DNA of 64,000 nt from Dongia deserti (GTDB taxonomy: Bacteria > Pseudomonadota > Alphaproteobacteria > Dongiales > Dongiaceae): contig NZ_QORW01000015.1 in the NCBI RefSeq assembly GCF_003574735.1, positions 1 through 64,000 on the forward strand, written 5' to 3'. Made by a program: the position numbers and the translations under genes. The notes below the pieces were generated by a model. It made no database searches. It was not told where the DNA came from and saw only the letters and a list, made by a program, of their open reading frames with translations. Shown one piece after another: positions 34,464 to 34,599 of the stretch; position 1 is the stretch's first letter, and each line of letters begins with the position of its first letter.

Positions 34464-34599
34464 CGCCGCGGGGAATGCTGGCGGAACTACATTTAACTCG
34501 GTGGTCGCGGGTTCGAGTCCCGCCGGGTTCCCGCAAGGGAGTCCGTAGCTCAGCTGGTAGAGCACCGTGAAAGTTTCGCTACCGATAGTCCCCGCGGCG
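34464..34599 (+). ncRNA. yrlA: YrlA-like Y RNA with circularly permuted tRNA domain (unit 4)
   Basis: Closing stem CGCCGCGGGG (34464-34473) with CCCCGCGGCG (34590-34599), a perfect 10 bp. Motif 34473-34492. The tRNA-like core in order: anticodon-stem strand CGGT (34499-34502), 4-nt variable loop, T-arm GCGGG-TTCGAGT-CCCGC (34507-34523), a 9-bp acceptor-like stem (34524-34532 with 34537-34545, two G-U pairs) capped by GCAA, TA (34546-34547), D-arm GCTC-AGCTGGTA-GAGC (34548-34563), and ACCG (34564-34567) pairing back to CGGT. G15, G18G19 and T54T55C56 equivalents are present. This is the fold known for Salmonella YrlA, which is bound by Rsr. Confidence 0.85.

Follow-up and report, generated by a model that had tools for sequence, protein, structure and literature searches.

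A YrlA-type Y RNA with a circularly permuted tRNA-like domain is the last of four Y RNA units between rsr and rtcB in Dongia deserti

The segment at positions 34464-34599 of the window (the whole stretch of Dongia deserti DNA that was analysed, 64,000 nucleotides) very probably encodes a YrlA-type Y RNA, the fourth of four from an RtcR-controlled RNA-repair operon, that would tether the Ro60-like protein Rsr to PNPase. The genes and control element around it are as follows:
30791-32398, minus strand: rtcR, sigma-54 activator with an RtcR sensor domain (Pfam RtcR, Sigma54_activat)
32535-32551, plus strand: sigma-54 type -24/-12 element TTGGCACGCGTCCTGCT upstream of rsr (identified by eye, one mismatch)
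32579-34138, plus strand: rsr, Ro60-like protein (Pfam vWA_Ro60, TROVE)
34628-35857, plus strand: rtcB, RNA ligase (Pfam RtcB)
35842-36921, plus strand: rtcA, RNA 3'-phosphate cyclase (Pfam RTC)

The succession of RtcR, sigma-54 element, rsr, Y RNAs and rtcB-rtcA is the usual YrlA setting, and the rsr-yrlBA-rtcBA operon of Salmonella has the same order (PMC7790460, PMC9879122), with two units (yrlB, yrlA) compared to the four found here. A convergent gene for a C13-type (legumain-like) peptidase lies downstream of rtcA (37005-37739).

The stretch from 34180 to 34599 is made up of four units, each with a GAATGC...ACTAC motif and a closing terminal stem:
34180-34284, plus strand: unit 1, Y RNA with a T-arm (GAAGG-TTCAAAG-CCTTC) and a GCAA hairpin, no D-arm
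34284-34370, plus strand: unit 2, Y RNA that has the Ro-stem motif but lacks tRNA-like parts (inverted repeat I1, repeat D1)
34389-34458, plus strand: unit 3, Y RNA that has the Ro-stem motif but lacks tRNA-like parts
34464-34599, plus strand: unit 4, full YrlA Y RNA with Ro-binding stem and tRNA-like domain (RF02553, terminal stem)
34473-34492, plus strand: Ro-stem motif GAATGC...GGAACTACAT of unit 4 (repeat D1)

Unit 4 is the last of this tandem array, and overlapping open reading frames at 34201-34570 were set aside as chance. A strong, GC-rich hairpin whose loop has 4 nt (34143-34184), directly 3' of the rsr stop codon and 5' of unit 1, may serve in processing or termination control.

Rfam YrlA (RF02553) matches unit 4 at 34468-34598 over the whole length of the model with 73.5 bits (gathering threshold 69). 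No other RNA family exceeds its threshold anywhere in the window; unit 3 gives a weak match to the same model (34391-34458, 29.9 bits). The terminal stem of unit 4, in which 34464-34474 pairs with 34589-34599, carries the GAATGC / ACTAC internal motif for Ro binding and encloses a permuted series of T-arm, acceptor-like stem and D-arm, and the unit adjoins the Rsr/Ro60 gene. Its family membership is thereby observed directly, as is its operon context. The parts of the enclosed domain are:
34499-34567, plus strand: the circularly permuted tRNA-like domain of unit 4
34507-34523, plus strand: T-arm GCGGG-TTCGAGT-CCCGC, with the loop TTCGAGT (marker scan, alignment)
34524-34545, plus strand: acceptor-like 9-bp stem CGGGTTCCC-GCAA-GGGAGTCCG, closed by GCAA and containing G-T pairs
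34546-34563, plus strand: T8-A9 and D-arm with the AGCTGGTA loop (marker scan, alignment)

The T-arm is preceded by CGGT (34499-34502) and GGTC (34503-34506), and the acceptor-like stem is followed by TA (34546-34547), the D-arm GCTC-AGCTGGTA-GAGC (34548-34563) and ACCG (34564-34567), the partner of CGGT in the closing stem, so that every part named in a preliminary description of this DNA was recovered to the base. The tertiary marker bases which that description had listed (G15/C48, G18-T55, G19-C56) are likewise present, and the full set of marker pairs G15-C48, G18-T55, G19-C56, T8-A14 and T54-A58 was found. A marker scan of both strands, in which a T-stem of 5 bp around a TTCRA loop, a D-arm after it (A14, R15, GG, A21), bases 15 and 48 that match and a closing stem of 4 bp were all required, returned 34499-34567 as its sole site in the 64-kb window and no site in 100 first-order Markov-shuffled windows of that size.

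Un-permuting the module and submitting it to ARAGORN is a direct test of whether it is a circularly permuted tRNA. No tRNA gene is called on the module in its native order, and a tRNA is called once the module is rotated back to tRNA order and given an invented anticodon loop; recognition is therefore restricted to the un-permuted form. An ordinary tRNA gene was rejected, since ARAGORN finds 0 tRNAs across the 64-kb window. The domain has the T-arm, D-arm, acceptor-like stem and marker bases of a tRNA but differs from it in being circularly permuted and in having neither an anticodon loop nor a free acceptor end. The permuted elbow of the 'complete circularly permuted tRNA' first proposed thus stands, whereas the word 'complete' does not. 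As also proposed, the domain cannot be charged, because a loop closes the acceptor end. The tRNA-like domain of tmRNA is likewise a tRNA mimic inside a non-coding RNA, but it differs in being open to aminoacylation and in encoding a tag, neither of which applies to unit 4.

The same architecture is known from Salmonella YrlA (PDB 6CU1), which shares with unit 4 the Ro-stem, the permuted tRNA-like domain and the conserved letters, and whose solved structure superposes on tRNA in permuted order (PMC11472068). The preliminary description had recognized this architecture correctly and had supposed that it was reached here with different sequence; the latter is contradicted by the family's own letters in the arms and by the RF02553 score above gathering. 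The arm letters of unit 4 are the conserved letters of the Rfam consensus, and the same letters occur in 28 units, which argues for homology and not for a second invention. Given the fit of the family model and the shared letters, an independent origin by convergence was rejected. Judged by its sequence, 34499-34567 is a well-formed homologous member of a known family, new solely as a member, with an acceptor-like stem of 9 bp compared to 6 bp in the YrlA consensus of Rfam. Units 1-3 resemble YrlB and other Y RNAs without the full tRNA-like domain in having a Ro-stem and no D-arm, and unit 1 differs among these in keeping a T-arm with an adjoining hairpin.

Energy folding of 34464-34599, which had been suggested as a check, disagrees with the arms for this copy. 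A nearest-neighbour energy model, which omits tertiary contacts, favours an alternative pairing by about 3 kcal/mol (-70.2 vs -67.0) and gives pairing probabilities of 0.28 for the T-arm and 0.003 for the D-arm of unit 4. As the alternative pairing is preferred, energy folding alone cannot show the T- and D-arms and was rejected as proof of them; in most relatives, unlike unit 4, the T-arm is favoured. It is the comparative evidence across relatives that shows the predicted arms of unit 4. In an alignment of 28 tRNA-like domains, 98.1% of cells are standard pairs, compared to 81.2% in shuffled and 37-49% in slid versions, and both sides change in 9 of the 16 counted pairs (acceptor-like helix 5/5, closing helix 2/2, T-stem 2/5). 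The covariation that was also put forward as a check is thus found: the closing, T and acceptor stems all show compensatory changes, and unit 4 has a conserved covarying structure. The D-stem shows no variation among these 28 units, a set partly chosen by D-arm letters, and changes from GCTC/GAGC to GTTC/GAAC in three units from a looser search. Of the 28 units, 26 have G-C at the 15-48 pair, which was not a selection criterion; the other two have A-T and A-C, respectively.

Comparison across loci ties the Ro-stem to Rsr. Eighty rtcB loci were fetched, 26 with an Rsr gene upstream and 54 without. The exact Ro-stem motif is present in 25 of the 26 Rsr-linked loci (the last one, L027, has a variant) and in only one of the 54 others (L033, whose contig offers only 363 bases ahead of rtcB), so the motif tracks Rsr and not rtcB. 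Tandem Y RNA arrays are usual beside Rsr. A set of 33 arrays, comprising the window and loci from the rtcB fetch and the Rsr search, was searched loosely for arms and contains 48 units with both T- and D-arms (a few of these D-arm calls are doubtful), 20 with a T-arm only and 21 with neither; at least one two-arm unit occurs in every array except L021 and L105. In L028 (3357-3500), the Rfam tRNA model spans two adjoining units, where the D-arm of the first and the T-arm of the second follow each other as in a normal tRNA. Rsr itself was found in 7 of 385 genomes in a class-level search, an order-level search of the other 16 genomes gave no match, and this patchy spread suggests transfer. The YrlA of L022 (G062:C20:50245-50377) comes from an Alphaproteobacteria MAG, and the Rsr gene at G357:C20:50399-51949, from one of the seven genomes, appears to share a genome with it. 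No phage relatives were found in a scan by Rsr; a pattern scan picked up three viral contigs (L107-L109) in which a T-loop comes after the Y RNA motif.

By analogy with relatives, RNA ends with a 2',3'-cyclic phosphate would induce the operon through RtcR, as described for RtcR induction (PMC7790460), and the four Y RNAs would be cut from the part of the transcript between rsr and rtcB. The terminal stem would then bind the Rsr ring, while the tRNA-like domain would fold as a permuted tRNA elbow and dock to PNPase. Rsr and PNPase are partners of YrlA, on which DusA and TruB act, according to PMC8394870. Enzymes that modify T- and D-loops would probably recognize the domain in unit 4 as well, and tRNA-type modification is accordingly to be expected of it, as the preliminary description had also supposed. 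By tethering Rsr to the nuclease, the Y RNA would determine the choice of structured RNAs for degradation once broken RNA ends have induced the operon.

Instead of tethering PNPase, the domain might chiefly work as a decoy for tRNA-binding proteins, either nucleases or modifying enzymes, by keeping them occupied. The tertiary-marker letters are kept, and competitive inhibition of an anticodon nuclease was raised by Hughes et al. (PMC7790460), but the domain has no anticodon loop, fragments of Salmonella YrlA were not seen after DNA damage (PMC7790460) and the Ro-stem ties unit 4 to Rsr, so we consider a decoy unlikely. That the structures act in cis only, as control elements of the rsr-rtcB mRNA, is less likely still. 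They do lie in a co-directional intercistronic stretch in which no sigma-70-like promoter was found; each unit is nevertheless a closed stem with a Ro-binding motif that goes with Rsr, not with rtcB by itself, and the Y RNAs of the Salmonella operon are treated as non-coding RNAs binding Rsr and PNPase in PMC9879122. The tRNA-like letters of the T- and D-arms could also be those of a functionless rearranged tRNA pseudogene, a reading to which we give almost no weight: dozens of operons have this permuted order, with stems that covary, a paired Ro-stem flanks the domain, and ARAGORN calls no tRNA in the window.

A YrlA-type tether between Rsr and PNPase remains by far the best reading of unit 4, and the rest of the array adds a smaller observation. 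In unit 1 the T-arm GAAGG-TTCAAAG-CCTTC is followed by CCGGC-GCAA-GCCGG (34225-34260), again with no D-arm, and shuffling this unit yields a comparable T-arm about 0.15-0.3% of the time. Similar half mimics recur in relatives: a T-arm is present in 20 of the 41 units without a D-arm, compared to a mean of 0.16 and a maximum of 3 in shuffles. We found no mention of them in the literature on Y RNAs beyond the primary papers; they may be known, and are perhaps a minor point not previously described. Tentatively, the arrays could hold a third recurrent kind of unit, T-arm-only and often with a short hairpin, in which the T-arm half might be a binding module of its own, for example for T-loop enzymes.

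For this operon, our data add a clear YrlA, an element that was to be expected there. If the tentative reading of the T-arm-only units is true, the T-arm half of the mimic would act as a binding module by itself. In either case, full, half and plain units occur side by side in the arrays next to Rsr, a mixture that could help to find out what the separate parts of the mimic do.
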